Below, in pieces: positions 8,746 to 22,042 of a stretch of DNA of 47,401 nt. A program made the translations under genes and the position numbers. The stretch lies in NCBI GenBank assembly GCA_946536145.1, contig CAMNEA010000015.1, forward strand, positions 1-47,401, read 5' to 3'. This stretch comes from an uncultured Butyrivibrio sp. Its GTDB lineage: Bacteria; Bacillota; Clostridia; Lachnospirales; Lachnospiraceae. Position 1 is the stretch's first letter; each line of letters starts with the position of its first letter. A model generated the notes under the pieces. It did not search any database, had not been told where the DNA came from, and was given only the letters and a program-made list of their open reading frames with translations.

Positions 8746-9078
8746 ATGAGCGAGCATACACATACATACACACATGACCATGAAGGTGGGGACAGTGAAC
8801 ATACCCATGACCATGAGCACGATCATCATGGTCATGAGCACCATGAGCACAGCAACGATATTCCGGGAAGCAGAGACAAGATTGTCGCACTCCTTGACTA
8901 TACGCTAGGGCACAACAGAAGCCATGAAGATGAACTCTTAAGGCTTAAAGATAAACTAAGAGACATTGGAGAGGACGAAGCGGCATCCAGGGTGGAAGAG
9001 GCAGCAGACAGCTTTTCCAGGGGCAATGAGCTGCTGGATAGCGCATTGAAGCTTATAAAAGAAAATCACCGCGGCTAG
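8746..9078 (+). CDS. Histidine-rich metal-binding protein with helical C-terminus
   Basis: A 110-aa protein. The first ~36 residues hold 14 histidines in HTH/HDH/HEH runs, an obvious Ni/Zn/Co-binding tail. Residues 45-110 are charged and predicted helical (LLRLKDKLRDIGEDEAASRV), a plausible coiled coil. A His-rich tail plus coiled coil at about 110 aa resembles in design the nickel chaperone CooJ, although there the His-rich part is C-terminal; homology is not shown. It lies 15 nt after pgcA in an apparent operon. It converges on the CooT-like gene 85 nt away, which makes a nickel role attractive but unproven. Zinc storage is the main alternative. Confidence 0.65.
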   Translation: MSEHTHTYTHDHEGGDSEHTHDHEHDHHGHEHHEHSNDIPGSRDKIVALLDYTLGHNRSHEDELLRLKDKLRDIGEDEAASRVEEAADSFSRGNELLDSALKLIKENHRG

Positions 9079-9163: not shown

Positions 9164-9346
9164 TTAACAGTCTATGCGGATGACAGCGCCGGTAAGGTCT
9201 GCATGAGTCAGGCTTCCCTTGAACGTCTTCTTTTCACCCATCAGATCGGTCAGTGTAATATTCTCGCCATTAATGTCTATGGCGCTGACATACTCCATAA
9301 GAACTTCATCGGGATCAGATTCCCTGTATGCTGTAGAAAGACACAT
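9164..9346 (-). CDS. CooT-family-like nickel-binding small protein
   Basis: A 60-aa protein beginning MCLSTAY. The CooT family (small SH3-like nickel-binding proteins, about 60-70 aa) characteristically starts MC, with Cys2 as nickel ligand. The rest fits: a beta-rich stretch VSAIDINGENITLTDLMGEKK, then an apolar ending ADLTGAVIRID. The ATG was chosen over a GTG three codons upstream because GGAAGGTGG then has normal spacing and because it exposes Cys2. It is the last gene of the leftward operon, 15 nt after the small membrane protein gene and downstream of dehydratase-like subunits. CooT normally assists nickel insertion into carbon monoxide dehydrogenase, which is not in this window. Confidence 0.72.
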   Translation of the reverse strand: MCLSTAYRESDPDEVLMEYVSAIDINGENITLTDLMGEKKTFKGSLTHADLTGAVIRIDC

Positions 9347-9361
9347 TTTTGCCACCTTCCT

Positions 9362-9565
9362 CTACTCAACATTCTCCGTCATCGAATACGGAGTTGTGGT
9401 AGTATCAGCTCTCTTCATATTGTCAAACCGCTTTACCATAAATGGTTCCCAGATGTAGTACAAAAACTTGCCATCGAGGTCGTAGTAGAAAACAATAAAA
9501 AGTATCCCGTAGATGATGGCAGCAAGCTTAAGCAGTTTAAAGAAAAATTTGCATAGTATCTTCAT
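9362..9565 (-). CDS. Small single-span membrane protein (module paralogue 1)
   Basis: A 67-aa protein with basic N-terminus MKILCKFFFKLLK, one hydrophobic span (AAIIYGILFIVFYY), then DLDGKF and a soluble tail containing KRFDNMKRADT. It is clearly homologous to the 55-aa protein at 17312-17479: both have the pattern K-L/I-K-L/I before GILF, an aromatic-rich DLD/NLD-x-K after the span, and FD-x-x-K-x-AD near the end. AAGGAG precedes the ATG. It sits 15 nt after the large dehydratase-like subunit gene. Function is unknown; its pairing with each dehydratase module suggests a membrane tether or subunit. The family is not one I can name. Confidence 0.7.
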   Translation of the reverse strand: MKILCKFFFKLLKLAAIIYGILFIVFYYDLDGKFLYYIWEPFMVKRFDNMKRADTTTTPYSMTENVE

Positions 9566-9580
9566 TTTTTATCTCCTTAA

Positions 9581-11272
9581 TTACCAGCTCATTGAATCGT
9601 CGAAGTCAAGAAGCGACGGATCGAGAGGCTCTTCGCGCATTACTGTGGTCATGTAATCGTTTATGATGCCGCGGATCTCGGCTCGTGAAACGGTTCTCTT
9701 ATCGGGCAGTGCATGAGGAACCCAGATTGCATGTATGTTGCGCTTTCTGAATTCATCTTCAAATATTCCGTGTATTCCCTGCATCCCCTTGCACTGAAGC
9801 TGGTCATACATGATTACCATGTCGCAGTTGAACCTCTCCATGTAATCAAACAGTGACAGGATATGCTCGTGTCCGCCGACAGCCATTGCCCGCATGGGAG
9901 CTTTCTCATTGAACCATGAGAGATCCTCAAGCGCATGCTCATAAGTATCGGTGCGAAGGTACTGGTCAAACATCAGCGAGTCCATATTTATCACGCAGTT
10001 GATACCCCAGCAGTTGTAAGCCCAGGTGCACCAGTGCGAGTAGTACAAAGGAGCGCAGCTCCAGGCGATGGCGCGGTGCCTGGTCTTGGGGAAGGTCTCT
10101 ATTTTATTCCCGACAGTCTTGTTCATGATCCGCCTTACCCGGTCATCAACTTCGTGCCAGATTGGTCTGTCCCCTGCCTGTGAGTAGTAGATCCTATAGA
10201 GCGCCTGGGCAACTCCTGTTATCGGGTAGGAAGGAGTGTTCGCTGCGACATCCCATTTCTCCCATTCAAATTCGGTGAGTTTGTTGAAACTCTCGGCGTA
10301 TTTTACATACAGATCCCAGTCCATCTTAACGCCGAACTGTTCCTCTACAAATTTCCAGGCCCCCTCAATCTCCTTCTGACAGTGCTTCTGGACAAGCGGA
10401 TCGTCGTATCTCATTGGCTGAGGCATAGCATAGAGCGGTCTGTTGAGAAACCAGTCCTGTAGTACCGAGGTGGCTACCGAGCCGTCGCACGCCTCATTGG
10501 ATGTCAGCATCACAGGGCTGTAATCCGGGTAATCGTCGTGGACAAACAGACCATACTCAGCCTGGCACATAGGGCACGGATCGGCAGGAAGCCCAAGGGA
10601 CTGTGCTGCATCTATGTAGTTGAGGACAGTGTGGTTGTTTACATGAACAGATACAAAGTAGGGCACCATCTCAAGAGGGACATCGTCAAGATTGTCCCTG
10701 AACCCATAGAATATATTGCCGCTGAGGGTCTCGTTGTGGGCAATTGTTTTGTTCCACTTCTCGGGGATCTCGCCATTATGGATCTTTTTGTCACACTGGA
10801 ACATTCTGGTGATCTGGCGGACGGTCTCGCTTACCATAGCGCGGTAATGCCAGGCGGAAGCACGAAGGGTTTCACCTCTTGATCCCTCAAGCCCTCTGTC
10901 AAACCAGTGCATGGCTGTGAGGTAGGTCTGTCCCATCCAGCGGTACCTCATTGTTCCCTTTAAAAAGTCCACAAGAGCGCCGGGACCCTCACCGTACTTT
11001 ATTATGTCACTGACCATGTGCCCGTAGTTGTAGAGCCATATCATATTGAAGTAATACATGGTATCAACAAAACCGCGCCACTCGCGGTGCTTGTAAAGAC
11101 CTGTGTTTCCGACATAAAGATCGCCAAGACGCCTCTCTTCATGCGGCTTGCCATACCAGAAATCATGTACTGTCTTTTTCAGATCGCGGGCCTTATCCTT
11201 TTCGTTCCTTGGCTTTTCTACTACAAACAGCTCACGGTATTTTGATTTGATGTCCTTAAATGAAAATCCCAT
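9581..11272 (-). CDS. 2-hydroxyacyl-CoA dehydratase/benzoyl-CoA reductase-like large subunit (module 1)
   Basis: A 563-aa protein of the HgdA/HgdB/BcrB/BcrC superfamily, which bind a [4Fe-4S] or double-cubane cluster and carry out radical dehydration or low-potential reduction after ATP-driven electron injection. It is longer than classical HgdA (about 480 aa). Compared with its paralogue at 14636-16411, four cysteines are conserved: DPCP (Cys 233), ACDGS (262), NCWG (421) and QCKGM (494). The C-termini match (DPSLLDFDD...W). Start and stop overlap the small-subunit gene by 1 nt (TAATG), so the two are translationally coupled. N-terminal charged residues replace any targeting signal; it is cytoplasmic. 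Substrate unknown; no obvious acyl-CoA genes adjoin. Confidence 0.8.
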   Translation of the reverse strand: MGFSFKDIKSKYRELFVVEKPRNEKDKARDLKKTVHDFWYGKPHEERRLGDLYVGNTGLYKHREWRGFVDTMYYFNMIWLYNYGHMVSDIIKYGEGPGALVDFLKGTMRYRWMGQTYLTAMHWFDRGLEGSRGETLRASAWHYRAMVSETVRQITRMFQCDKKIHNGEIPEKWNKTIAHNETLSGNIFYGFRDNLDDVPLEMVPYFVSVHVNNHTVLNYIDAAQSLGLPADPCPMCQAEYGLFVHDDYPDYSPVMLTSNEACDGSVATSVLQDWFLNRPLYAMPQPMRYDDPLVQKHCQKEIEGAWKFVEEQFGVKMDWDLYVKYAESFNKLTEFEWEKWDVAANTPSYPITGVAQALYRIYYSQAGDRPIWHEVDDRVRRIMNKTVGNKIETFPKTRHRAIAWSCAPLYYSHWCTWAYNCWGINCVINMDSLMFDQYLRTDTYEHALEDLSWFNEKAPMRAMAVGGHEHILSLFDYMERFNCDMVIMYDQLQCKGMQGIHGIFEDEFRKRNIHAIWVPHALPDKRTVSRAEIRGIINDYMTTVMREEPLDPSLLDFDDSMSW

Positions 11273-12465
11273 TATGTCCGGCCTCCCTTCTGAAGCTTTT
11301 TGAGTTCTATGCTCTCAACAAATGCCTGGAAGCGTGTCCTTAGCTGTCCTACAGCATTATTGACATACTCTTTTTCAATTGAGCATACAGGAAGTCCGAA
11401 GTCTCTCTGGATGATCAGAGTGTCAATCGTTCTCTCGTAGCTCCAGTATTCGCAGAATTTCATCTGTGAGATTATGACTCCATCGGCCTTATACTCTTTT
11501 GCCACATCGGCAATGTACTGCTTTCTCTGCCTCATGACATGCTGGTCCATAAAGCGTGGACATTCACTTGTCTCAAGGTAGTGACGAGCGATGGCTCTAA
11601 GAGGAGTCTCACCTTCTTTAACGATGATCTCTTCCCTTCCCGGAAGGGATCCGTAGCAGTGCCTGTCGGCAACTACCAGTGCACCGCACTCCTCGATGAG
11701 CTTTATGAAATCCGGGTCATCTTCCTCGGAACCAGTCAGCACCACTTTGCATCGGTAAGTCTTTTTGACGTCAGGTGTTCTTGTCTTTAGCTCATTAGCT
11801 ATATCCCGAAGCTTGTCGATGATCAGATACTTGGGGCAGACCAGAGTGCACAGCTGTATGACAGAAAATTCCCATCCGGTGATCGTGGGCTCGTCAAGTT
11901 TTCTGTAGCTTCCTATCTCGCTGATAAGACGGCATATCTCGTTGTGCTGCCGGATTGCCGTTAAAATGGCATCATCACTTGTATCAATACCAAAGCTGTC
12001 ACTTAGCTTATCAAGGACATGGGCACGAAGCTGTGTCTCATAGTGCTCTATGGAGTTTTCATTCTTTTTAAAGGGAACGTCGGTGAACTCACAGAAAAAG
12101 TCAGGGTTCTTTATCACATCAAGGAGCTGCAGATGCTCCTGAAATCTGCAGGTGACTGCGCAGGTCTCTGTGGCCATCTGGGCATCGAGGAAATTATAGC
12201 CGCCTTCAAGGGCTCTCTCAAGGAGGCATCTTCCGTACATGCAGGTGCGGCCTGACATATAGTAGGTCGCCATGTCAGGGAAGCTGCTCCTGGGAGCTCT
12301 CAGCCGAACAGAAAAACATCCCGGAAGATCCAGCAGGACCTCCGGCATAAAGTAACAGGTGTAACCAAGCGCACGAAGTCCATCATCCCTGGCTCTTCGA
12401 ACCAAAGGATTGTAGGCCTCCTGCAAAAGGTCTTCGAGCTCAAAGATGTGCACGAGATCTTTCAT
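11272..12465 (-). CDS. 2-hydroxyacyl-CoA dehydratase-like small subunit (module 1)
   Basis: A 397-aa HgdB/BcrC-like protein with Rossmann-like halves. The PEVLL(D)LPGCFSVRLRAP segment corresponds to the PEELIxAAGxxP region of 2-hydroxyglutaryl-CoA dehydratase. Likely cluster ligands, conserved in the paralogue at 13428-14639, are Cys75 (RTCMYGR), Cys102 (TETCAVT) and Cys338 (MKFCEYWSYE, equivalent to the C-x-P-x-x-x-E region of the family). The first gene of the leftward operon, it is translated from an ATG with RBS GGGGGAG. It pairs with the large subunit immediately downstream. As the cluster ligands are retained it is probably an active subunit rather than a scaffold. Confidence 0.82.
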   Translation of the reverse strand: MKDLVHIFELEDLLQEAYNPLVRRARDDGLRALGYTCYFMPEVLLDLPGCFSVRLRAPRSSFPDMATYYMSGRTCMYGRCLLERALEGGYNFLDAQMATETCAVTCRFQEHLQLLDVIKNPDFFCEFTDVPFKKNENSIEHYETQLRAHVLDKLSDSFGIDTSDDAILTAIRQHNEICRLISEIGSYRKLDEPTITGWEFSVIQLCTLVCPKYLIIDKLRDIANELKTRTPDVKKTYRCKVVLTGSEEDDPDFIKLIEECGALVVADRHCYGSLPGREEIIVKEGETPLRAIARHYLETSECPRFMDQHVMRQRKQYIADVAKEYKADGVIISQMKFCEYWSYERTIDTLIIQRDFGLPVCSIEKEYVNNAVGQLRTRFQAFVESIELKKLQKGGRT

Positions 12466-12498
12466 TATTTTATCTCCCCCTACTCCTTAAATACTGAT

Positions 12499-12509
12499 GG
12501 CAATTTGCC
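12499..12509. promoter_or_regulatory. Small palindrome in the divergent control region
   Basis: GGCAATTTGCC is a perfect inverted repeat around a central base. It lies 34 nt upstream of the leftward operon start, where an operator or 5'-UTR element could act. The leftward strand also carries TGATATGAT (about 12530-12545), an extended -10 candidate with no convincing -35. Confidence 0.3.
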
Positions 12510-12580
12510 GAAAAAATAACAAAAATTACTTCTAAATCATATCATATATCACGAAATTATAAAAGAATACATCAATATAC

Positions 12581-12608
12581 TTGTTAGAATTTCACAAATA
12601 ATTATAAT
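12581..12608 (+). promoter_or_regulatory. Promoter of the rightward CooC/dehydratase operon with overlapping inverted repeat
   Basis: TTGTTA and TATAAT are separated by 16 nt, 30 nt upstream of the cooC-like start. An imperfect inverted repeat TTGTTA-N5-TCACAA (12581-12597) covers the -35. It resembles a Rex-type redox operator (TTGTGA-N6-TCACAA) but is one base short, so the regulator is uncertain. Confidence 0.6.
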
Positions 12609-12638
12609 ATATATAGGAAGATTTGGTTAGGGGGATTT

Positions 12639-13400
12639 ATGGCAGATAGCACTGTAGTGATCGCACTGGCAGGTAAGGGAGGCGTTGGCAAGACGTCTCT
12701 TTCTGCTGCAATAGTAAGGATTCTTTCAGAAAAAAGACCTGACGCCAAGATCCTGGCAATTGATGCGGATCCGGCGGTAGGTCTTTCTGTTGCTCTGGGA
12801 GTGGAGGTGACAGAGACACTCGACCGGATAAGAAAGAGGGTTGCCGAAGACATCACAGGGAAACTTCGGGACACACAGGACATTTTGGCGGAGGCAAAGT
12901 TCAGGATATATGAGGCCATGGAGGAGGAGAAGGGATTCGCCTTCCTTGCAATAGGCAGACCCGAGGCAGCAGGATGCTACTGCGCAATCAATACCTATCT
13001 CAAGAAAGTGATAGAGATGCTGGTTGACGACTTTGACTTTGTGGTCATTGACGGTGAAGCCGGGATAGAGCAGATCAACAGAAGAGTCCTTGAGAAGGTT
13101 ACGCATCTTATCTGCGTTTCTGATCAGAGCATGAAAGGCCTTAAGATAATTGAGACGATACGTGAGGTTGCAGATGACCTGGTCATGTACGATGATATCG
13201 GTCTTGTCATAAACAGAGCGCCTTTGCCTGAGCGGATCACAGAGGACGAGATCGGAGGGGTGAGGATCATATCCGTAATACCGCAGGACGATGTTATGAC
13301 TGAGAATGATATTGAGGGCAGGAGCGTCTTTGACCTGCCCGATGATGCAAAGATATTAAAAGGTGCTGCTGTAGCGCTTGAGAATCTGTTAGGTGACTAA
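12639..13400 (+). CDS. cooC: CooC-type nickel-insertion ATPase
   Basis: A 253-aa MinD/SIMIBI-class ATPase. The deviant Walker A motif GKGGVGKT is at residues 12-19, switch region IDADPAVGLS follows, and VVIDGEAGIE is Walker B-like. The CooC hallmark Cys-x-Cys is present (GCYC, Cys113 and Cys115), which in CooC binds metal at the dimer interface. CooC uses ATP to insert nickel into the C-cluster of carbon monoxide dehydrogenase and related sites in acetyl-CoA synthase maturation (AcsF). It is the first gene of the rightward operon, with AGGGGGA before the ATG and 27 nt before the small dehydratase-like subunit. No CODH is encoded nearby, so its client is probably a protein of this operon. Confidence 0.85.
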   Translation: MADSTVVIALAGKGGVGKTSLSAAIVRILSEKRPDAKILAIDADPAVGLSVALGVEVTETLDRIRKRVAEDITGKLRDTQDILAEAKFRIYEAMEEEKGFAFLAIGRPEAAGCYCAINTYLKKVIEMLVDDFDFVVIDGEAGIEQINRRVLEKVTHLICVSDQSMKGLKIIETIREVADDLVMYDDIGLVINRAPLPERITEDEIGGVRIISVIPQDDVMTENDIEGRSVFDLPDDAKILKGAAVALENLLGD

Positions 13401-13427
13401 AATAAGGAAAACGGAAAGGAGGTAGCT

Positions 13428-14639
13428 GTGCAGGATTTAAAACATATGATCAGGTTTGAAAATCTTTTAAATGATGCTGCGAATGATCTGATCAAGGAAG
13501 CACTGGCTGAGGGGCAGTATGCCATAGGGTATACCTGTTATCATATGCCGGAGGTGCTGCTTAATGTGGATAACTGCTTTTCTGCCCGCATGCGCGCGCC
13601 AAGGACAGGATCCATAGATATTTCTACATATTATATGTCCAATTACACCTGCGAGTTTGCGAGAGCTCTTTTAGAGAGAGGTATAGAGGGGGGATATGGA
13701 TTCCTTGATGCTGTCGCAGGTGTTGATGCATGTTCTGCAATGAACAGGTGCTATGAGCATATCGAGATACTTGGATGCAATACCAAGCCGCATTTTTTTG
13801 TAACTCACACCGATGTACCCTATAAGGTCGAGGACTACAATGTGGATCAGGTCGCGACGCAGATGAGACTGCGGCTTCTTGATGTTATGCACGAAAAGCT
13901 TGGAACTGACATATCGGACGATGCCATCAGAAGGGCTGTTGAGGAGCACAACGAGCTTTGCAGGGTTATCACCGAGATTGGGAATTACAGAAAGCTTGAG
14001 AATCCGCCTGTTACCGGATATGAATTTCATGTGATATGCCTTGTCAGCTACTGCTGTCCGACAGCAAAGATATTGCCGCTTCTTAAAGAGACTCTTGAGG
14101 AGATAAAGACAAGAAAGCCGGATCCCAAGCCTTGGTTCAGGGCAAGGGTTGCTGTAGTCGGATCAGAAGTTGATGACCTTGATTTTACAAGGCTGCTTGA
14201 AGAGTCAGGGGCCATGGTTGTCGCGGACAGATACTGCTATGGCTCATTCCCTGGAAGAGAGGTCATTGAGCTAAATGACAATGAGGATGTTGTGAGACAG
14301 ATAGCAAGACACTATATGCTCACATCCGAGTGCCCAAGATACATGGCGCAGGAAAAGATAGAACAGAGAAGAAATACTGCTGACCGTCTGGCAAGGGAGT
14401 TTGGCGCGGACGGCATAATCTACGAGCAGATGAAGTACTGTGACTTCTGGGCGTTTGAAAGACCTCTTGCAAGCCATATCCTCACAGAGGAATATGGATG
14501 GCCGACTCTTTCCATCGACAGATCCTACAGTGTCCATAACTCGGGACAGCTCAGGACCCGCTTCCAGGCATTTGTCGAAGCGCTCGAGATCAAGCGGATC
14601 AAAAAGAATAAACCTCTTGGACAGGAGGTGACTGCATGA
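13428..14639 (+). CDS. 2-hydroxyacyl-CoA dehydratase-like small subunit (module 2)
   Basis: A 403-aa paralogue of the 11272-12465 product: both share GYTCYxMPEVLL at residues 34-45, Cys75 (NYTCEFA), Cys102 (DACSAM), ADRxCYGSxPGRE, MKYCDFW and the C-terminal GQLRTRFQAFVE. These cysteines are the likely Fe-S cluster ligands. The start is GTG with AAAGGAGG at about 6 nt; an ATG six codons in is possible, but the GTG start aligns exactly with the paralogue's N-terminus. It overlaps the large subunit by ATGA (4 nt). The reaction is expected to involve electron uptake from the ASKHA activator encoded downstream. Substrate unknown. Confidence 0.83.
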   Translation: MQDLKHMIRFENLLNDAANDLIKEALAEGQYAIGYTCYHMPEVLLNVDNCFSARMRAPRTGSIDISTYYMSNYTCEFARALLERGIEGGYGFLDAVAGVDACSAMNRCYEHIEILGCNTKPHFFVTHTDVPYKVEDYNVDQVATQMRLRLLDVMHEKLGTDISDDAIRRAVEEHNELCRVITEIGNYRKLENPPVTGYEFHVICLVSYCCPTAKILPLLKETLEEIKTRKPDPKPWFRARVAVVGSEVDDLDFTRLLEESGAMVVADRYCYGSFPGREVIELNDNEDVVRQIARHYMLTSECPRYMAQEKIEQRRNTADRLAREFGADGIIYEQMKYCDFWAFERPLASHILTEEYGWPTLSIDRSYSVHNSGQLRTRFQAFVEALEIKRIKKNKPLGQEVTA

Positions 14640-16411
14640 AATACATAGACCCCAAGAATTTCAGACTTAAGGACGAGATAGACTGGAAGAGCCAGGCGGC
14701 CAACATGAAGGAGATAGCAGGGATTGTCTCCGAGCTCATAAAAGAGACTAATTGGAAGGATGTAGCCGGGGCTGTAGGAAAGGACGCCAGGGGATTAAAA
14801 AAACGCCTCGCCTATGAAGCATCTCTTTTAAAAGAAATGTCACCGGACGAGATAAAAGACCTGATCATCAATGGTGAGAAGCATCTCGGCAAACTGTATG
14901 CCTCGGGCAAGATGGCCACAGTGCGCAGGGAGTGGAGAGGAATAAAGGATACGGGCGCAGACTTTTATGAATGGGCAAGGATGTGGGCGATGCTCCTTGC
15001 GACATTCTCCAAGGATCTGGTCCCGGCCATGATGGGAGCTGTGCACTACAGATGGATGATCTCCTATTTCTGCTGCCACTCCTTTATGGACAAAAACACG
15101 ATCGGTCTTAGGGGACGAGCGCTCAAGATGCATCATGAGCTGATCTATGCGATCTTCAGATATGTGGCGGAGAACCTTGTGCTTTTGATGAAGGCAGACA
15201 GGAAGGTTGGAAACAGTACGGCTCTTTCAAAGAAGATAGTGCTGTTTGATGAAATGACCATGTCGCAGATCATGGCAGGCTTCCCGGATCTTATAGGAAT
15301 TCCTTACCAGCTTATGCCGGTATTTCTTTTGTCAGAGATAGATCAGCTTGCCTGTATGCCATACATAGATGCGATAGAGTCCTACGGACTTCCTTCGGAC
15401 ACCTGCCCGGTTCCTTCGTCAGAGTGCGGCTCTGTTGTGGTAGATGCACTTCCGCACATGGGAGCTTGCTTTATATCGAGTTCCATGCCCTGTGACGGTT
15501 CGGTCATGGCGTCATCTTATACAAGCAGACGGTTTAAGGATCTCCCGACCTACCATCTGGCATTCCCTGTGAGATATGAGGACGAATCCATAATGGATGC
15601 GGCAGTAAAAGACGTGGAGGGATGCATCAGGTTCATTGAAGAAAACACGGGCGCAAAGTGGAACTGGGATGCCTACTTCGCCGCCATGAAGAGATTCAAT
15701 GAGGAGACAAAATACGAACTTCAGAAGTGGGAGATCAATCAGACGCCTTATCCGCAGCTCATAGGTCCGTGCTACGAGCTCTTCAGAAAATGGAACTACG
15801 AGATGGACGGAGGTCTTGATCCCAGGATCATCTCAACCTTCAAAAAAGTCGACAAGCTGATGCTTAAAGCCTATGAAAAGAGGGATGAAGCCTGGCGCGG
15901 CAAGATGAAGTACAGGGCAATAGTGTGGTCGATACCGGCTCACTACTACGCGAATTTCTCGAACTGGATGGCGAACTGCTGGGGAGTTGACATACTTGTC
16001 GAGATGGAGTCACTTAATTTCACAAAGCCACTTGAGACCGAGAATAAGGAAGAGGCTTTAAAGGACCTCTCAAGGCTGTATGAGAGGATGGTTATGAGAC
16101 GGCACACCAACGGCGGATATGAGCACGTGGTGACAGAACTCTGGAGACAGTGCGAACTCTGGAACGTCGACTTTGTACTTATGTACCAGCATGTATCCTG
16201 TAAGAATATGGCGACTGTCCAGGGACTGTTTGAGGATCAGGCAAGGGAGAGAGGGATCAAGCTTCTGTGGTGCAGCCACGACCTTATGGATCCAAGAACC
16301 GTATCCCGCAAGGATATGCGATCGACCGTCAATGAATTTATGAGAACAGTCATGAGGGCAGAGCCTGTAGATCCGTCGCTTCTTGACTTTGAAGACGACA
16401 CAACGTGGTGA
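14636..16411 (+). CDS. 2-hydroxyacyl-CoA dehydratase-like large subunit (module 2)
   Basis: A 591-aa paralogue of the 9581-11272 product, with a 25-30 residue longer N-terminus. The cysteines shared with module 1 are Cys257 (DTCP), Cys286 (PCDGS), Cys448 (NCWG) and Cys522 (SCKNM). Additional cysteines (264, 278) replace Cys236 of module 1. The conserved C-terminal block runs from DPRTVSRKDMRS through DPSLLDFEDDTTW. Translationally coupled to the small subunit. Together the four subunits may form two separate heterodimers or one four-subunit complex. The sequence does not decide between dehydratase and reductase chemistry; the larger-than-usual size sets both large subunits apart from classical HgdA. 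Confidence 0.8.
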   Translation: MKYIDPKNFRLKDEIDWKSQAANMKEIAGIVSELIKETNWKDVAGAVGKDARGLKKRLAYEASLLKEMSPDEIKDLIINGEKHLGKLYASGKMATVRREWRGIKDTGADFYEWARMWAMLLATFSKDLVPAMMGAVHYRWMISYFCCHSFMDKNTIGLRGRALKMHHELIYAIFRYVAENLVLLMKADRKVGNSTALSKKIVLFDEMTMSQIMAGFPDLIGIPYQLMPVFLLSEIDQLACMPYIDAIESYGLPSDTCPVPSSECGSVVVDALPHMGACFISSSMPCDGSVMASSYTSRRFKDLPTYHLAFPVRYEDESIMDAAVKDVEGCIRFIEENTGAKWNWDAYFAAMKRFNEETKYELQKWEINQTPYPQLIGPCYELFRKWNYEMDGGLDPRIISTFKKVDKLMLKAYEKRDEAWRGKMKYRAIVWSIPAHYYANFSNWMANCWGVDILVEMESLNFTKPLETENKEEALKDLSRLYERMVMRRHTNGGYEHVVTELWRQCELWNVDFVLMYQHVSCKNMATVQGLFEDQARERGIKLLWCSHDLMDPRTVSRKDMRSTVNEFMRTVMRAEPVDPSLLDFEDDTTW

Positions 16412-16420
16412 TATAGGGAT

Positions 16421-16468
16421 GCAAAGTCACAATGAGTTGTGCTGGCACAAAACTCATTGTGACCTTGC
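16421..16468 (+). other. Long intra-operon hairpin between dehydratase-like and activator genes
   Basis: An 18-nt arm (16421-16438) pairs with 16451-16468 with a single A-C mismatch. The intervening GTGC/GCAC extends the stem with a 2-nt bulge to about 22 bp. No T-run follows, so it is not a standard terminator. It sits in a 92-nt gap inside an otherwise tightly packed operon, suggesting RNA processing, transcript stability or stoichiometry control. Confidence 0.75.
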
Positions 16469-16503
16469 AGGAATTTAATACAAATAAGGAGGAATCTGGA
16501 ATA

Positions 16504-17304
16504 ATGAAATATTTTGGCGGGTGTGATGTGGGATCGACATATACAAAAGCTGTAATCGTTGATGAGAATGGCAAGATGGTTGCCTCCACCACCTTAAAGA
16601 GTAAGATCATAGCTCAGGAGTCTGCTGAGCTTGCAATGAAAGAGGTAATAGATCAGGTGGATGGACTGACCAGTTCCAAGGATCTTGAGTACCTTATTGG
16701 AACAGGATATGGACGAAACAAGGTGCCTTTTGCGGATGAGAATATTTCTGAGATATCATGCCATGCAATGGGAGTACATGTTACCAACCCTTCTGTAAAG
16801 GCGATCATCGATATCGGCGGACAGGATGTAAAGGGCATATCCATCGATACAGACGGAACCGTTAAAAATTTTGCCATGAATGACAAGTGTGCAGCCGGAA
16901 CAGGGCGATTCTTTGAGGCTATGGCAAGGTCATTTGAGATGTCCCTTGAGCAGTTCTCAAATCTGTCACTGTCAGCGAAAAATGTGATCCCTATCACGGC
17001 CCAGTGCACGGTTTTTGCAGAGTCGGAGGTTATCACTCTTGTAGGCGAAGGCAAGCCTATGGACGAGATTGCTGCAGGCATTGAGATGGCCGTTGCCAAG
17101 AGATGCTTCGTTATGTCCAAGAAAGCAGGAGCTACCGATTCTATAACTCTTACAGGCGGCTGTGCCAAGAATGCCGGACTTAAAGCTGCTATAGAGCAGG
17201 TTCTTAAACTGAAGGTAGTGGAGCTTTCCACAGACCCGCAGCTCATGGGAGCCCTTGGAGCTGCAGAGTACGCAAGAGCAAAGGGGCTTGCCGGAAAGGA
17301 CTGA
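16504..17304 (+). CDS. ASKHA-type activator ATPase (HgdC/BadF family)
   Basis: A 266-aa activator of 2-hydroxyacyl-CoA dehydratases. It hydrolyses ATP to push one electron from ferredoxin to the dehydratase at very low potential. The phosphate-1 motif is GCDVGSTYTKAVI. The bridging [4Fe-4S] ligands of the homodimer are in DKCAAGTGRF (about Cys129) and QCTVFAESEV (about Cys168). IDIGGQDVKG and LTGGCAKNAG complete the ASKHA fold. The start is the ATG 11 nt after AAGGAGG; an in-frame upstream extension runs through the hairpin and is rejected. It is the only activator in the window, so it probably serves both dehydratase-like pairs. A small membrane protein gene follows at 7 nt. Confidence 0.92.
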   Translation: MKYFGGCDVGSTYTKAVIVDENGKMVASTTLKSKIIAQESAELAMKEVIDQVDGLTSSKDLEYLIGTGYGRNKVPFADENISEISCHAMGVHVTNPSVKAIIDIGGQDVKGISIDTDGTVKNFAMNDKCAAGTGRFFEAMARSFEMSLEQFSNLSLSAKNVIPITAQCTVFAESEVITLVGEGKPMDEIAAGIEMAVAKRCFVMSKKAGATDSITLTGGCAKNAGLKAAIEQVLKLKVVELSTDPQLMGALGAAEYARAKGLAGKD

Positions 17305-17311
17305 GCAAGGG

Positions 17312-17479
17312 ATGAGCAGAACAGTAAAGATCATTCTTAAAATCATAAAGATCCTGACAGTAGTGACAGGAATTCTCTTTGTCATATATTTCTGGAATCT
17401 TGACCAGAAGCTTATGGCATGGGCATACACCCAGGTGAACAGGATATTTGACCGCAAGAAAGCAGATATAAAATTCTGA
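17312..17479 (+). CDS. Small single-span membrane protein (module paralogue 2)
   Basis: A 55-aa paralogue of the 9362-9565 product. Basic/hydrophobic N-terminus (MSRTVKIILKIIKILTVV), span ending GILFVIYFW, then NLDQKL and the soluble end FDRKKADIKF. The ATG follows CAAGG closely, 7 nt after the activator stop. Its location between the activator and the ACS-like gene, with a counterpart in the opposite operon, argues for a specific role in the system, such as membrane anchoring. No known domain recognised. Confidence 0.7.
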   Translation: MSRTVKIILKIIKILTVVTGILFVIYFWNLDQKLMAWAYTQVNRIFDRKKADIKF

Positions 17480-17493
17480 TCAGAGGTGAATGT

Positions 17494-18210
17494 ATGAGGC
17501 TGTATGACAATCTGATCGCTGAGACGCTGAAAGCTATCGCTGATTCGGGGAACGTAAGATCTTTTCCCGTGCGGGGAAATGCCTGGAAGTGCAATGCAAG
17601 CAGTGAATTTATTATGGCAAGGGATGCGGCCCTGGAACTTGGCGGATCCGGAGAGCCCTCTGTGAACTATACCTGCCCTACAACTTCGGGCAAGGTGGGT
17701 AAAGATGAGATACTCATTTGCGGAAGGGACATAAATGAGATCAAAGGTGACACCGCTTTTGCAAGGATCGTGCTCCTTGAGACCGAGGACCTCGGCGAAG
17801 ATACAGACAGTGAGAGGGCATTCAGAGCCATAAGAGAACTGGACTTTGTCAGATACCATGTATTTCCGAAAGGATATATGGTCAGGGTTTCCGCACAGAG
17901 CAATCAGGAGCAGGTGAGGATAAGCCGTGATGCTCTGAATGCAGGTATGGACTTTGAACGGATCGGAGCAGCGTATGCTGCAAAATATAAAGCTGTGAAT
18001 CTTGTAAAACATGTAAGGATCATATTTATCACAGACAGAAAACTGGTAGAAGCACTTAGGCCAAACGCTGATAAGGTTGATTCCATCACTAAGACCCTTA
18101 CACACATACTGGACGGACTTCCCACAGACTGTGGACACTGCAGCATGAAGAGCGTATGCGATGAGGTTGATGGAATGAGGGAACTTCATCTTGGAAAGAG
18201 CAAAAATTAA
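17494..18210 (+). CDS. Acetyl-CoA synthase beta-subunit (CdhC/AcsB)-like protein without the complete A-cluster domain
   Basis: A 238-aa protein. By recall of CdhC/AcsB sequences it aligns along the domain preceding the A-cluster: ALELGG (CdhC VELGG), DEILICGRDINEIKGD (DKVTIVGPDLKEMEEG), YMVRVSAQSNQEQVRISRDA (RYDVWMRVSK), GMDFERIGAAYAAKYK and HVRIIFITD (KMQVTFYTD). Near the end, DCGHCSMKSVC (Cys213, 216, 222) corresponds to the first Fe-S ligands of the A-cluster (C-x2-C-x8-C). The later ligands, including the Cys-Gly-Cys nickel site, are absent. It may be a CO/corrinoid-independent scaffold, an electron-transfer or metal-handling subunit. Position 15 nt after the small membrane protein and 16 nt before the flavoprotein supports co-function with the CooC and dehydratase-like proteins. 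Assignment by eye only. Confidence 0.6.
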   Translation: MRLYDNLIAETLKAIADSGNVRSFPVRGNAWKCNASSEFIMARDAALELGGSGEPSVNYTCPTTSGKVGKDEILICGRDINEIKGDTAFARIVLLETEDLGEDTDSERAFRAIRELDFVRYHVFPKGYMVRVSAQSNQEQVRISRDALNAGMDFERIGAAYAAKYKAVNLVKHVRIIFITDRKLVEALRPNADKVDSITKTLTHILDGLPTDCGHCSMKSVCDEVDGMRELHLGKSKN

Positions 18211-18226
18211 TCAGAAAGGAAGACTA

Positions 18227-20290
18227 ATGAAACAGGAATATGAATCACTTTTTACGCCCTGGAAGATCGGAAATCTTGAGATCAAAAACCGCATAGTTCT
18301 GGCACCAATGGGCGGGACATGTATATTCGGCTGGATGGAGCCGGGGGGAAGCCATTTTGACAAAGAGGCGGCAAAGCTGCTCCTTAAGATAGCAAGGCAC
18401 GACTGCGGACTGATTATTCCGGGAATAGCTCCGGTAAAAGACATGCTTGGCGGTAAGTGGCTTTATCAGAATAAGAAAAAGTTTGAAGAGCTTGCAGATT
18501 TTATGGATGAGCTCCATGCGACGGGAGCAAAGATGTTTGTCCAGATGACAGCAGGCTTTGGCAGGTCTTTTGCCCTGACTGCCCCTCTTGCCCTTCTTGC
18601 CAAAAACAAGGCACTTGGCACAATAGCAAGGCCATATATCGATGCGGAGTATCTTACCGCAGCACCTTCTGTGCTTCCAAACAGGTGGGCTGAGGACGTT
18701 ACTACGAGAGAGATAACCGAAAAAGAGATAAAGGACATTATATTTGCTTTCGGTGAGACAGCAAGACTGTGCAAGGAGGCCGGCGTTGACGGCGTGGAAG
18801 TGCATGCGGTCCATGAAGGCTATCTGCTCGATCAGTTTACTCTAAAGTATACCAACAAGAGGACGGACGATTACGGCGGATCTTTTGAGAACCGCTACAG
18901 GTTTGCTGCAGAGATAGTTAAAGAGATCAAGAAGACATGCGGAGAGGATTATCCGGTGTCACTTCGCTATTCAGTAAGATCAATGACCAAGGACTTTTGC
19001 TATGGCGCCATGCCGGGCGAGATCTTTGAAGAAATCGGAAGAGATATGGAGGAGTCTGAGAAAGCCGCCAGATTCCTACAGGATGCGGGTTATGATATGC
19101 TAAACTGCGACAACGGCACTTACGATGCCTGGTACTGGGCACATCCGCCGCAGTATATGCCGCAAAACTGCAACCTGAAGGATGTGGAGCATATAAAGAG
19201 ATTTGTTGATATTCCTGTTGTCTGTGCAGGCAAGATGGAGCCGGGAGCCGGTGCGACGGCTATCAGAGAAGGCGGCATCGATGCCATGGCAGTTGGAAGA
19301 CAGTTCCTGGCTGATCCCAAGTGGGTCACCAAGTTAAAGAGAGGAAGAGAAGAGGAGATACGTCCCTGCATCTGCTGTCACTCAGCGTGCTTTAATCTTA
19401 CAAAACACAACGGATCCGCCAATGACCAGGATCTTAGCGAGTCTGCCGGAATGTGCAGGTGCGCTGTAAATCCAAGGAGTATGCAGTCAGGTAAGTACAA
19501 AGTCAAAAAGACAGACAGGCCAAAGAGAGTAGCTATTATAGGCGGAGGCATCGGAGGCATGGAAGCAGCAAGAATCCTGGCTCTTAGAGGTCATATTCCG
19601 CAGATCTATGAGAAGACAAGCGAACTTGGCGGAGTGTTTATAGCTGCCGCAGCCCCGGCTTTTAAGGAGAAGGACAGGGAGTACCTTGCATGGCAGAAGC
19701 ATCAGCTTAAAAAGCTCGGCGTTAAGGTTCATTACAACTATGAGGTAAGACCGGACAGTCTTCCGGACGCAGATGAATATATTATCGCTACAGGGGCAGC
19801 TCCCAACAGGATTCCGATCCCCGGAGCCTCAGAATACGCAATGGATGCCACGGACTACCTTCTCGGTAAGAAGCAGACCGGAGAAAACGTCGTTATCATA
19901 GGCGGAGGCCTCACAGGCTGCGAGATAGCTCTTGATCTATTCAGAAAGGGGAAGAATCCTTCGATCGTCGAGATGAAGGATGACCTTATTGCTGTAAAGA
20001 ATATGTGCCTTGCCAATACAAGCTACCTTCGTGACTGCTTTAGGACCAACAAGGTTCCGGTATACCTGAATGCATCTGTAGCAGAGATTACTGAGGATCA
20101 CGTGGATATATCCACGCAGGATGCCAGAGCACTGTCGCTTCCTGCTGACAGCGTTATCATGTCAGTCGGATACCATCCGATGCCGCTTCTTTTTGAGTCA
20201 AAGAGCATACATCTGCTCGGGGACTGCAAAGATGTCGGAAATGTACGATCGGCGATCTGGGGAGCCTGGGACATAGCCATGAAGATCTGA
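18227..20290 (+). CDS. Old-yellow-enzyme-type NADH:flavin oxidoreductase (2,4-dienoyl-CoA reductase/BaiCD-like)
   Basis: A 687-aa FMN/FAD/[4Fe-4S] enoate reductase. Residues 1-360 are the FMN TIM barrel (SLFTPWKIGNLEIKNRIV at the start, VDGVEVHAVHEGYLLDQF, YGGSFENRYRF, DAMAVGRQFLADP). Near residue 380, CICCHSAC with later CRCAVNP gives the C-x2-C-x3-C...C cluster ligands. The C-terminal half has two dinucleotide folds: VAIIGGGIGGMEAARIL and VVIIGGGLTGCEIALDL. Family members reduce activated C=C bonds (dienoyl-CoA, bile-acid or cinnamate-type substrates) with NAD(P)H. The ATG was chosen because AGAAAGGA precedes it; an upstream in-frame ATG lies inside the previous gene. It is last in the operon and may act on the product of the dehydratase-like enzymes. 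Confidence 0.88.
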   Translation: MKQEYESLFTPWKIGNLEIKNRIVLAPMGGTCIFGWMEPGGSHFDKEAAKLLLKIARHDCGLIIPGIAPVKDMLGGKWLYQNKKKFEELADFMDELHATGAKMFVQMTAGFGRSFALTAPLALLAKNKALGTIARPYIDAEYLTAAPSVLPNRWAEDVTTREITEKEIKDIIFAFGETARLCKEAGVDGVEVHAVHEGYLLDQFTLKYTNKRTDDYGGSFENRYRFAAEIVKEIKKTCGEDYPVSLRYSVRSMTKDFCYGAMPGEIFEEIGRDMEESEKAARFLQDAGYDMLNCDNGTYDAWYWAHPPQYMPQNCNLKDVEHIKRFVDIPVVCAGKMEPGAGATAIREGGIDAMAVGRQFLADPKWVTKLKRGREEEIRPCICCHSACFNLTKHNGSANDQDLSESAGMCRCAVNPRSMQSGKYKVKKTDRPKRVAIIGGGIGGMEAARILALRGHIPQIYEKTSELGGVFIAAAAPAFKEKDREYLAWQKHQLKKLGVKVHYNYEVRPDSLPDADEYIIATGAAPNRIPIPGASEYAMDATDYLLGKKQTGENVVIIGGGLTGCEIALDLFRKGKNPSIVEMKDDLIAVKNMCLANTSYLRDCFRTNKVPVYLNASVAEITEDHVDISTQDARALSLPADSVIMSVGYHPMPLLFESKSIHLLGDCKDVGNVRSAIWGAWDIAMKI

Positions 20291-20347: not shown

Positions 20348-22042
20348 TTACAATCTGTTATGAATGCCGAGTTCTTCGTGCATTCGCCTCTTATTCTCAT
20401 ACATTCGTTCATCGGCAAGAAGATATACTTCATGGGGCGGGGTGCCCTCTGCAAGCTCATGACGATATGCATAGCCTGTAGCAACGCTGCGCTGATACTC
20501 AGAGTAGAGCGCGTTCATTACATTAAGTGCGCTTGTCATCCTTCCGATGAGCGCGTCGATGTCTTTTCCATTTGAATCTTCAATTATTACAAGGAACTCA
20601 TCGCCTCCGATTCTTGAGACAAATCCCACATTTTCAAAGGTTGTGGACAAAACCTTTGAAAAATCCTTGATATATTTATCACCTGAGGGATGACCGAACT
20701 TGTCGTTTACAAATTTAAGCCCATTGAGATCAATACTGATAATGCAGTAGTCACTGTCAGTATTGGCAAGGTCATCCAGCATCTTGTCCGAGCGCGCTCT
20801 GTTTGGAAGATCGGTGAGACCATCAGCATAGGCAAGGTGGGTAAGGGAAGAGTTCTCCTTCTTCTGGGCATAGGATTCTGTAACATAAAGCATATAATTG
20901 GACAGCTGGCACATTACATAGATAAGGCATCCTGAATCGATTATGACCATGCTGAGCATATCATCGATGGTGATATGGGCATATGCAAGAAGATATATTG
21001 CCAGGTGGATTATTTCTGCCAGGGAAAGCGCAAAAACGCCTGACATCTGTATCATACCTGAAGCAGAGATATCCTTTTTGGTGATGTTTCTTATAAAGAA
21101 GTACACGATCAGTATGAAGCCCAGGAGCCCTGATGCGTGATATATGGGCAGGGTTGTGCGAAGATGTACGTTAAATACAAAATGCAGCATATACTGAAAT
21201 AGCGTCAGAAGGACGGTAATGATCAAAGCTGTAAGATACAGACGTCTTTTCTCAATCTTTTGGACAAGGTACATAACCAGATAACAGAAAGGAATGATCA
21301 TATAAAGTGTGAAGTATTCAATAGCTGTCTCATGCGGGGTATAGAAAAAGGGCGAGAGGACATTATAGTAGCTCGTTATCCAGGCGCCGAGATTGATACA
21401 GAACAAAGACCCGACAAGAAAGCTTTTTACATCCGGAACTGCGGTGACGAAAAAGAGATTGATGCAGAAAAACGCAATTCCGAAAACAAAGAGAAACATT
21501 CCGGTTGCAATTATCATCATGTGCTTATGAATGAATATTCCTTCGATATCAGGCTGGCTGCCCAGCTGCGGGGCATGAAGGGTTTCAAAAGCTGCATATT
21601 CGCCTACTTTCATCTTCATCGTTAGTGTTTTCCCTGCATAATCAGTCGGCAGAGAGATAAAGTGGTACATCTTACCGATGAATTTTCTGCGATAGTAAGC
21701 ATCGTGCCCAAAATCATAGATGACTTTGTCACCTAAAAAACACTGCAGTGTTGTGTATCTGCTTCTGAAGAGGACTGCGGGAAATGGGATATTTCCAAGA
21801 TCAGGCAGAGGAACAGACATAGTGATATCATCGCCGTGCTCCAATTTGGAATCCATTATCTCGTAAAATTTTGAAAGAGATACGTTGCGGTGGATATTGC
21901 CGTTTATTGATACAGTCCAGCCGTTATCAAGCTCTGCAACCGGGTACTGGGGACTGGAAGTAATGCAGGTGCCTATGAGCCAGCTTATGAATACAGAAAT
22001 AGCAAGCGCGCAGCATATGGAGAGTAAACGCTTATTTTTCAT
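20348..22042 (-). CDS. Membrane diguanylate cyclase (GGDEF), tandem copy 2
   Basis: A 564-aa membrane protein. An N-terminal span is followed by an extracytoplasmic beta-rich domain (about 35-185; jelly-roll-like, with LDNGWTVSINGN and GKTLTMKMKVGEY), then about seven membrane segments (190-400), then a GGDEF domain with intact SRIGGDEFLVI near residue 480 and substrate-binding DLNGLKFVND. This architecture resembles 7TMR-DISM receptors coupled to c-di-GMP synthesis. No RxxD inhibitory site is seen five residues upstream of GGDEF. AAGGAGG precedes the ATG. It starts 6 nt after its paralogue, so the two are co-transcribed. The sensed ligand is unknown. Confidence 0.88.
   Translation of the reverse strand: MKNKRLLSICCALAISVFISWLIGTCITSSPQYPVAELDNGWTVSINGNIHRNVSLSKFYEIMDSKLEHGDDITMSVPLPDLGNIPFPAVLFRSRYTTLQCFLGDKVIYDFGHDAYYRRKFIGKMYHFISLPTDYAGKTLTMKMKVGEYAAFETLHAPQLGSQPDIEGIFIHKHMMIIATGMFLFVFGIAFFCINLFFVTAVPDVKSFLVGSLFCINLGAWITSYYNVLSPFFYTPHETAIEYFTLYMIIPFCYLVMYLVQKIEKRRLYLTALIITVLLTLFQYMLHFVFNVHLRTTLPIYHASGLLGFILIVYFFIRNITKKDISASGMIQMSGVFALSLAEIIHLAIYLLAYAHITIDDMLSMVIIDSGCLIYVMCQLSNYMLYVTESYAQKKENSSLTHLAYADGLTDLPNRARSDKMLDDLANTDSDYCIISIDLNGLKFVNDKFGHPSGDKYIKDFSKVLSTTFENVGFVSRIGGDEFLVIIEDSNGKDIDALIGRMTSALNVMNALYSEYQRSVATGYAYRHELAEGTPPHEVYLLADERMYENKRRMHEELGIHNRL

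Follow-up and report, generated by a model that had tools for sequence, protein, structure and literature searches.

The double-cubane cluster protein (DCCP) is a homodimer of the HGD-D family. BzdNO, MbdNO, HadBC and HgdAB are built from paired HGD-D subunits and are served by an ASKHA activase, and nickel insertion into carbon monoxide dehydrogenase (CODH) employs CooC, CooT and CooJ. For the archaeal activation complex of methyl-coenzyme M reductase (MCR), which contains an ABC-type A2 component and McrC/Mmp7, an ATP-driven machine with complex Fe-S clusters is proposed to reduce the nickel (PMC12176620); the main text of that paper uses neither "dehydratase" nor "benzoyl-CoA". In the five-gene putative isoprene reductase operon of Acetobacterium wieringae, a flavoprotein is proposed to hydrogenate a non-carbonyl C=C bond, and the nickel chaperones are HypA/HypB (PMC10134865); "dehydratase" is likewise absent from its main text. 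Among the titles and abstract openings of the literature searched, a combination of nickel maturation with the double-cubane/dehydratase superfamily was not described.

Here, we analysed a 47,401-nt stretch of Butyrivibrio DNA (the window; all coordinates refer to it in full) from a genome estimated to be 73% complete, and computed the gene content, synteny, homology, conserved cysteines and co-occurrence of a gene cluster that has paired HGD-D subunits, an ASKHA activase, CooC with its CYC motif, CooT and a His-rich CooJ-like protein. The locus differs from DCCP in having a separate L subunit of 563–591 aa, a membrane protein and nickel chaperones. It differs from BzdNO, MbdNO, HadBC and HgdAB in the missed equivalog cut-offs, the lack of a CoA ligase or transferase gene, the long N-terminal part of L, the nickel genes and the membrane protein, and from the A. 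wieringae operon in having CooC/CooT/CooJ in place of HypA/HypB. Substrate left aside, the cluster very probably encodes an undescribed nickel-linked, ATP-driven, membrane-tethered reductase of the HGD-D/double-cubane superfamily, as judged from sequence comparison.

Results

All open reading frames were found at the positions given by a sequence-only reading of this DNA, and the Pfam families obtained in profile searches matched its labels. The features are as follows.

8746..9078, + strand: His-rich CooJ-like putative nickel-binding protein, 110 aa (sequence; alignment A7)
9164..9355, - strand: CooT-like nickel protein, 63 aa (PF10133, 1.3e-15)
9362..9565, - strand: small membrane protein TM1, one hydrophobic stretch by eye (homologous to TM2)
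9581..11272, - strand: large subunit L-, 563 aa, long N-terminal part and C-terminal HGD-D (PF06050, 9.3e-25, residues 215-518; alignment A2)
11272..12465, - strand: small subunit S-, 397 aa, full-length HGD-D, six conserved Cys (PF06050, 6.5e-85; alignment A1)
12466..12638, no strand: divergent intergenic region, 173 bp, AT-rich (promoter-like matches on both strands)
12639..13400, + strand: CooC-type ATPase, 253 aa, CYC motif at residue 113 (3kje CooC, E=1.8e-17)
13428..14639, + strand: small subunit S+, 403 aa, GTG start, full-length HGD-D, six conserved Cys (PF06050, 1.4e-90; BzdN, 6eno and 3o3m_B structures)
14636..16411, + strand: large subunit L+, 591 aa, N-terminal part and HGD-D, four conserved Cys (PF06050, 8.7e-33, residues 243-569; alignments A2, A4)
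16432..17304, likely start ~16504, + strand: ASKHA (BcrAD/HgdC-type) activase (TIGR00241, 213 bits; relatives mostly 264 aa)
17312..17479, + strand: small membrane protein TM2, 55 aa, one hydrophobic stretch by eye (homologues at other loci; alignment with TM1)
17494..18210, + strand: truncated ACS-beta (CdhC)-like protein (PF03598, 1.1e-9; 1oao residues 331-475, E=0.0033; alignment A3)
18191..20290, likely start ~18227, + strand: OYE/enoate-reductase-type flavoprotein (PF00724 and Pyr_redox_2; structures 6qkg, 1ps9)

The two S-L pairs run divergently, each ending in a small homologous membrane protein, and one ASKHA activase, CooC, CooT, the truncated ACS-beta-like protein and the OYE flavoprotein are common to both; ORF positions, Pfam matches and the TM alignment agree with the two paralogous, divergent pairs described in the sequence-only reading. 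The His-rich CooJ-like gene is a member of the set that had been overlooked there. Because of the lengths of their relatives, the activase and the flavoprotein were assigned the later start sites as the likely ones. Promoter-like sites numbered 21 in the 11.9 kb region, compared with 15.4 expected, indicating a weak signal, and no clear conserved operator was found in the divergent intergenic region.

With PF06050, S-, S+, L+ and L- scored 286, 305, 115 and 88 bits, respectively, against a gathering cut-off of 28.4, indicating that all four belong to the HGD-D superfamily, and these four genes were the only HGD-D matches in the 73%-complete genome. Among the NCBIfam models matched, no equivalog cut-off was reached by S or L. 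The best NCBIfam match of S was the double-cubane model NF040772, with 128.0 and 126.8 bits for S- and S+ (26.3 and 21.3 bits for L- and L+) against a cut-off of 350 bits. The cut-offs of the class I benzoyl-CoA reductase models TIGR03190 and TIGR02263 (453.8 and 421.15 bits) were missed, with 85.5 and 93.8 bits for BzdN and 57 and 55.1 bits for subunit C, as was that of the 2-hydroxyacyl-CoA dehydratase model NF052456 (700 bits), with 72.7 and 69.9 bits. These profile searches do not place the pairs in an established acyl-CoA dehydratase clade, the outcome that would have spoken against the sequence-only reading. Six cysteines are invariant in S, and all six aligned with cysteines of 6eno/7yyl, which we take to be DCCP and in which these residues are presumably the ligands of the [8Fe-9S] double-cubane cluster. 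On this alignment, S would probably hold a double-cubane-type [8Fe-9S] cluster on its six cysteines.

The fold family, the activase and the two-subunit logic are typical of the superfamily, and would suit an ordinary enzyme of amino-acid or aromatic fermentation, be it a 2-hydroxyacyl-CoA dehydratase or a class I benzoyl-CoA reductase, beside which the nickel genes would be unrelated neighbours. We consider this very improbable, as the matching equivalog models scored far under their cut-offs, the S cysteines align with those of 6eno, L carries a long extra N-terminal part, the cluster has no CoA-transferase, and CooT occurs in none of the surveyed Butyrivibrio genomes without L.

In a survey of 79 genomes of the genus, L was present in 28 and absent from 51. 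Among 17 same-genus stretches examined, 8 were main-cluster loci, and the remaining 9 represented a third S-L set. TM1, L-, S-, CooC, S+, L+, ASKHA, TM2, CdhC and OYE occurred together at all 8 main-cluster loci, with CooT at 6 of them, and since these ten genes stay together throughout, their clustering is not due to chance. The core CooC-S-L-ASKHA-TM-CdhC was also found in other Lachnospiraceae and in Oscillospiraceae; the neighbourhood survey suggested in the sequence-only reading thus revealed neighbours conserved across genera and families. Genomes carried up to three S-L sets, and the titles of at least 26 of 80 records mention a ruminant. The doubled, mirror-image layout emphasised in that reading is present at this locus but is not essential, because every gene of locus L035 lies on one strand and the second S-L pair was absent from the stretch covered at 10 of the 34 loci with room for it; the doubling is a trait of some lineages, outside the core. 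No flanking family occurred at more than 8 of 92 loci. As previously stated, no CoA transferase or ligase was present among the cluster genes, and none was recognised among the 20 flanking proteins of the window (two without a family match). Next to the cluster, fatty-acid genes were recognised neither among these 20 proteins nor among those flanking genes of the 92 loci that were identified.

CooT matched PF10133 at 57.9 bits (cut-off 27), and CooC, with its Cys motif in place, matched the solved structure 3kje, indicating homology to the CODH nickel-insertion proteins and bearing out both earlier assignments. The His-rich protein had no Pfam match, and we liken it to CooJ by architecture, without a sequence match; 11 such proteins beside clusters were aligned, all with a His-rich N-terminus and a conserved C-terminal part. 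CooT was found in 25 of the 28 L-holding Butyrivibrio genomes and in 0 of the 51 non-holders (Fisher p=1.3e-17, kinship ignored). Of the 28 holders, 16 were tested for PF03063, the CODH or hybrid-cluster family, and one of these had it. No PF03063 gene was found in the 73%-complete source genome or in B. proteoclasticus B316, and strain P18, a cluster holder, had one PF03063 gene and no CooT match. With a CODH-family gene in 1 of 16 tested holders, the nickel chaperones probably serve this S-L complex, a client different from CODH. We infer that the complex would contain nickel, which the sequence-only reading had raised as a possibility and which the CooJ-like protein, the distribution of CooT and the 15 of 16 tested holders without PF03063 have strengthened.

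CooC, CooT and the ACS-like fragment are assembly-type proteins, and the complex Fe-S clusters of the machine proposed to reduce MCR nickel (PMC12176620) would be compatible with a role in reductively activating or maturing a different nickel enzyme. This role appears improbable, as no further nickel enzyme could be recognised within the cluster, PF03063 is missing from nearly all tested holders of the genus, and up to three S-L sets per genome suggest substrate specialisation over maturation.

The activase scored 190 bits with PF01869 and 213 bits with TIGR00241 (cut-off 125.4), confirming the one ASKHA activator, and its Cys153 in CAAGTG and Cys244 in GGCAKN are presumably the bridging-cluster cysteines of the HgdC/BcrAD type. 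TM1 and TM2 are homologous, with an NLD/DLD-x-K motif common to both; judged by eye, they would be single-helix membrane proteins. TM2 homologues were present at 50 of 51 loci with room downstream. The CdhC-like protein (238 aa in total) matched PF03598 at 38.8 bits (cut-off 24) over profile positions 12-154 of 155 and matched residues 331-475 of ACS alpha, so the ACS-beta-like label holds for domain 2 only; the A-cluster domain that follows is absent and the ACS equivalog cut-offs were missed. Its C-terminal part carries CX2CX5C and an invariant His (alignment A3), and the predicted model had a mean pLDDT of 84, low beyond residue 203. The flavoprotein had been called enoate-reductase-type, which PF00724 and Pyr_redox_2 corroborated; its nearest structures were 6qkg, which we take to be naphthoyl-CoA reductase (NCR), and 1ps9 (2,4-dienoyl-CoA reductase).

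We know of no gene for the reductase that converts vaccenate to stearate. The cluster is carried by B. proteoclasticus B316 and by strains P18 and Su6, both presumably stearate formers; B316 and P18/Su6 fall into two separate holder subgroups with non-holders between them. B. proteoclasticus is described as the only known clade taking vaccenate fully to stearate, via membrane-associated reductases (PMC4478896). Biohydrogenation is reported to require a free carboxyl group (PMC7667790), which fits a cluster without a CoA-transferase or ligase gene, and the 18:1 reductase is thought to be different from the CLA reductase (PMC9626764). A study in goats found 18:0 to be correlated only weakly with the numbers of B. 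proteoclasticus (R2=0.14; PMC4823909).

An exact match to the published stearate-group 16S primer pair was found in 7 genomes, 5 of them holders and 2 non-holders (G705, 99% complete; G685, 88%), and the association with the cluster was not significant (p=0.09 over 79 genomes; p=0.13 over the 16 in which the forward primer matched with no more than 1 mismatch). This test is weak because 63 of the 79 genomes, including 21 of the 28 holders and P18 among these, showed no forward-primer site. In the B316 chromosome as deposited, a frame break near codon 72 divides L+, indicating either an error of the record or an L+ that is dispensable there. Oscillospiraceae and further gut records carry the core too, and we know of no stearate formation in these.

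Considering these results, we put at roughly 0.4 the probability of the whole reading, in which such a reductase would act on isolated C=C bonds in free long-chain (C18) fatty acids, converting vaccenate to stearate. It is quite possible that the same type of reductase acts on another hydrophobic or aromatic gut substrate, such as plant isoprenoids (e.g. phytol), aromatic acids or small unsaturated molecules: BzdN, of a benzoyl-CoA reductase, is the closest solved structure to S by sequence, the flavoprotein is nearest to NCR and 2,4-dienoyl-CoA reductase, and the core occurs in many gut Clostridia beyond stearate formers. The absence of a CoA ligase from the cluster, with none recognised in the window flanks, argues against such substrates, and the agreement of B316, P18 and Su6 with the stearate phenotype, presumed for the latter two, would then be coincidence.

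Discussion

The earlier interpretation of the locus as a multi-subunit Fe-S, possibly nickel-containing, reductase is supported by these comparisons, which also suggest a cluster type, a membrane tether, an electron path and a substrate. In the fatty-acid reading, ATP hydrolysis by the single activase would drive single low-potential electrons into S, from which they would pass to L, where a four-cysteine site probably binds the substrate or carries nickel. Electron delivery may fall to the truncated ACS-beta protein and the flavoprotein, the small protein behind each S-L pair may anchor the complex to the membrane, and nickel would be loaded by CooC, CooT and the CooJ-like protein. The likeliest reaction would be trans-vaccenate (18:1) to stearate (18:0), the final step of biohydrogenation in the rumen, and individual S-L pairs may serve different isomers. 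That the enzyme is in full the fatty-acid hydrogenase long sought in the rumen, a nickel-containing, ATP-driven, membrane-bound enzyme of double-cubane type that saturates free fatty acids at isolated C=C bonds, is, as a specific proposal, rather doubtful.

If the class is right, nickel maturation would be coupled to the ATP-driven double-cubane/dehydratase superfamily. If the proposal is true, this would be, to our knowledge, the first HGD-D-superfamily enzyme needing nickel and the first acting on a lipid without a CoA thioester. If the substrate is right as well, genes would be named for the step behind the saturation of ruminant fat, for which reviews, where they treat this step, speak of reductases and name no gene (PMC9626764, PMC4478896). 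This would permit gene-based surveys, cultivation tests and control of the fatty-acid composition of milk and meat, and would provide a natural catalyst for the hydrogenation of unactivated alkenes.

Gene content of the cluster

An ORF check and family profile searches bore out all of the open reading frames, coordinates and family labels of the sequence-only reading. The leftward genes encode the small membrane protein TM1 and the large and small HGD-D (PF06050) subunits L- and S-, with CooT at the far left end; the rightward order is CooC, S+, L+, the shared ASKHA activase, TM2 (a homolog of TM1), a truncated ACS-beta-like (CdhC-like) protein and an enoate-reductase-type (OYE) flavoprotein. 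The genome is 2.89 Mb in size and 73% complete, and all four of its HGD-D matches are located on this contig, C15. The genome was assigned to Butyrivibrio on the strength of named records in which the cluster recurs at about 90% identity. An extra member of the set was found:

8746-9078, histidine-rich protein of 110 aa

Similar proteins, rich in His at the N-terminus and conserved over the C-terminal part, adjoin the cluster in other loci, including that of the B. proteoclasticus strain B316. Such a composition is typical of CooJ, and the set therefore includes a CooJ-like protein alongside CooC and CooT. A His-rich ORF was flagged in 23 of 98 loci; in two of these, L117 and L146, the frame seems to be spurious.

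The flavoprotein gene is immediately followed by two reverse-strand genes in tandem (20348-22042 and 22049-23800), whose products are membrane proteins of similar appearance that carry GGDEF domains; a related GGDEF-type gene was seen at seven more loci of the main cluster and at one of the third set. Further along, a RACo-like ASKHA protein (27144-28715, forward strand) carries the RACo middle and C-terminal domains and is a possible corrinoid-protein reactivase. The Rfam search of the window returned one tRNA and nothing else, and hence no riboswitch in the control region. When 11 regions between the divergent operons were aligned with hand-chosen ends, only AT-rich sequence and ribosome-binding-like edges were seen, and no conserved operator.

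Conserved cysteines and protein families

Six cysteines of S (C37, C75, C102, C270, C302 and C338) were invariant across 17 diverse sequences, and in a profile alignment all six matched cysteines of 6eno/7yyl, which we take to be the double-cubane protein DCCP with its [8Fe-9S] cluster. L carries a long N-terminal part ahead of the HGD-D domain, and four of its cysteines (C257, C286, C448 and C522) are conserved across 19 sequences. For C257 and C286 the aligned residues of 6eno are also cysteines, and C522 aligns with a BzdO cysteine solely in a negative-score match. C448, nearly invariant in a larger set of 35, had no clear counterpart. Both cysteines expected for a bridging cluster, presumably their role, were present in the activase. 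In the CdhC-like protein, ACS domain 2 was the sole matching part, and the C-terminal end bears CX2CX5C and an invariant His; its model was confident to about residue 200 and low beyond. The flavoprotein resembles NCR and 2,4-dienoyl-CoA reductase, and CooT matched nothing in the PDB at E 0.01. PMC10134865 describes the reduction of acetylene by double-cubane enzymes.

Neither S nor L reached the cut-off of any NCBIfam equivalog, and the profile searches placed neither pair in an established acyl-CoA dehydratase clade. As these cut-offs were missed and the cluster contains no CoA-transferase, a dehydratase of ordinary amino-acid fermentation, against which the sequence-only reading had argued, is unlikely.

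Conservation of the cluster

All ten main genes were kept in the eight same-genus main-cluster loci and CooT in six of them, one of the eight having every gene on one strand. With L+ as the query, 84,980 species genomes were scanned by pattern, and the best 80 of the 104 relatives obtained were retained. Counting loci with room in the record, S adjoined L+ in 70 of 71 and CooC was found in 67 of 71; the activase and TM2 were each detected in 50 of 51 and a CdhC-like gene in 48 of 51. The missing activase of L112 is an artefact of the coordinate rule, since an activase is listed there. The neighborhood is thus conserved in other genomes, and its constant core is CooC-S-L-ASKHA-TM-CdhC.

The remaining genes were more variable. 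Inside the retrieved stretches, a second S-L pair and a flavoprotein at an identity of at least 45% were each found in 24 of 34 loci, and CooT in 25 of 34. Because stretches with a single pair exist, the mirror-image doubling noted from the sequence does not define the system. More distant versions, with one pair, were seen both in other genera within the family and in a single further family of the same order (L084-L086, L089 and L090). At L089, a dihydropyrimidine-dehydrogenase-like Fe-S flavoprotein stands in place of the OYE flavoprotein, which suggests an electron-input role for the flavoprotein.

No flanking family was widely common, the two commonest, the His-rich and the GGDEF-type genes, each reaching 8 of 92 loci. 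A gene that we take from its sequence to be an HtpG-like chaperone lies between the TM1 gene of the second pair and CooC (L133:5884-7773, L145:5901-7793 and L159:5826-7739), and is also seen at L132, L136 and L141. In L087 and L088 (genus g33 of the same family), S-L pairs were found, and the retrieved stretch gave no match to CooC, the activase or CdhC; these pairs are a further orphan branch of the L family.

Distribution and the probable client of the nickel proteins

Full-length L is limited to a few lineages. A sample of 246 genomes of the order yielded 13 with it, the window genome included; in a sample of 398 from the phylum the window genome alone had it, the other matches there covering all or part of the HGD-D domain. 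Within the genus, 28 of 79 genomes were holders of L. CooT was present in 25 of the 28 holders and a third S-L-TM set in 21, and neither was found in any of the 51 non-holders (Fisher values of 1.3e-17 and 1.6e-13, respectively, both inflated by kinship). The third-set S shares about 54% identity with S+, and the third-set L about 39% with L+ (L043-L051). No CooC, activase or CdhC was found nearby in these nine retrieved stretches; the third set probably relies on the main-cluster proteins. No third S-L copy was detected in B316, in strain P18 or in the 73% complete window genome.

A phosphoglucomutase tree was built from the 49 of 79 genomes with an orthologue (identity of at least 84%, or about 71% as outgroup); the 30 genomes left out, holder G689 among them, gave no match, a weak one or just the distant paralogue. 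On this tree the cluster must have been gained or lost seven times, with three of these events required by well-supported branches, against a shuffled mean of 16.5, so the holders do not form one clade.

Nickel chaperones might also mark an accessory island of CODH/ACS. PF03063 (CODH or hybrid-cluster family) was present in two of four L-bearing genomes of other genera. Among the 16 of 28 genus holders searched, it was found in one (P18), and it was absent from B316 and from the window genome, at 73% completeness; the accessory-island explanation was rejected on these counts. In most searched Butyrivibrio holders the nickel chaperones are therefore without a CODH client, and the S-L complex is likely to be their client.

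Proposed mechanism

From the directly observed gene content, homology, cysteines and co-occurrence, we infer each step of a mechanism. Electrons from NAD(P)H or ferredoxin would enter at the flavoprotein, and perhaps also at the CdhC-like protein. The activase would raise them by ATP hydrolysis and hand them singly to S, then to L, while L and the small membrane protein may hold the substrate at the membrane. L or the CdhC-like protein could be the site of the nickel, which the CooC, CooT and CooJ-like proteins would load. With a probability of about 0.8, we consider the cluster to encode an undescribed nickel-linked, ATP-driven, membrane-tethered reductase. Within the HGD-D/double-cubane kind, it is set apart by the nickel chaperones, the membrane protein, the extended L and the ACS-like fragment. 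Its parts are known individually. The combination did not come up among the literature titles and abstract openings listed, with subscription journals thinly covered, and none of these described the cluster or gave a gene for vaccenate reduction.

A possible fatty-acid substrate

PMC4478896 describes B. proteoclasticus as the only known clade in which membrane-associated reductases convert vaccenate completely to stearate; in the clades of B. fibrisolvens, Pseudobutyrivibrio and B. hungatei the pathway ends at vaccenate. As a counter-example, a B. hungatei strain that forms stearate is reported in the title of a 2003 study. According to statements in PMC9626764 and PMC7667790, respectively, the 18:1 reductase is thought to be distinct from the CLA reductase, and hydrogenation requires a free carboxyl group. 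B316 (genome G671, identified by a 100% match to plasmid pCY360 over 7,501 bases) holds the cluster. Strains P18 (L097) and Su6 (L095), both presumably stearate formers, hold it as well; on the tree, non-holders separate the holder subgroup of B316 from that of P18/Su6. Further sequenced holders include MC2021 and INlla14. Together with the literature on vaccenate reduction, the presence in B316, P18 and Su6 fits an alkene hydrogenase whose substrates are free fatty acids.

Other observations temper this fit. The stearate-group 16S primer pair was exact in seven genomes, five with and two without the cluster, a suggestive but not significant association (p = 0.09) that is weakened by the absence of the forward-primer site in 63 of 79 genomes. 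The deposited L+ of B316 (L175:9463-11240) is broken into two overlapping frames near codon 72, unlike the other detected cluster genes of this strain, which are full length. The core occurs in many gut Clostridia for which we know of no stearate formation, and no lipid gene was recognized beside the cluster, either among the flanking families of the loci or in the window flanks. According to PMC4823909, the abundance of B. proteoclasticus in goats was only weakly related to 18:0. For these reasons we propose tentatively, at somewhat under even odds, that the system may hydrogenate the alkene bonds of free fatty acids, as a membrane-bound enzyme dependent on nickel and ATP.
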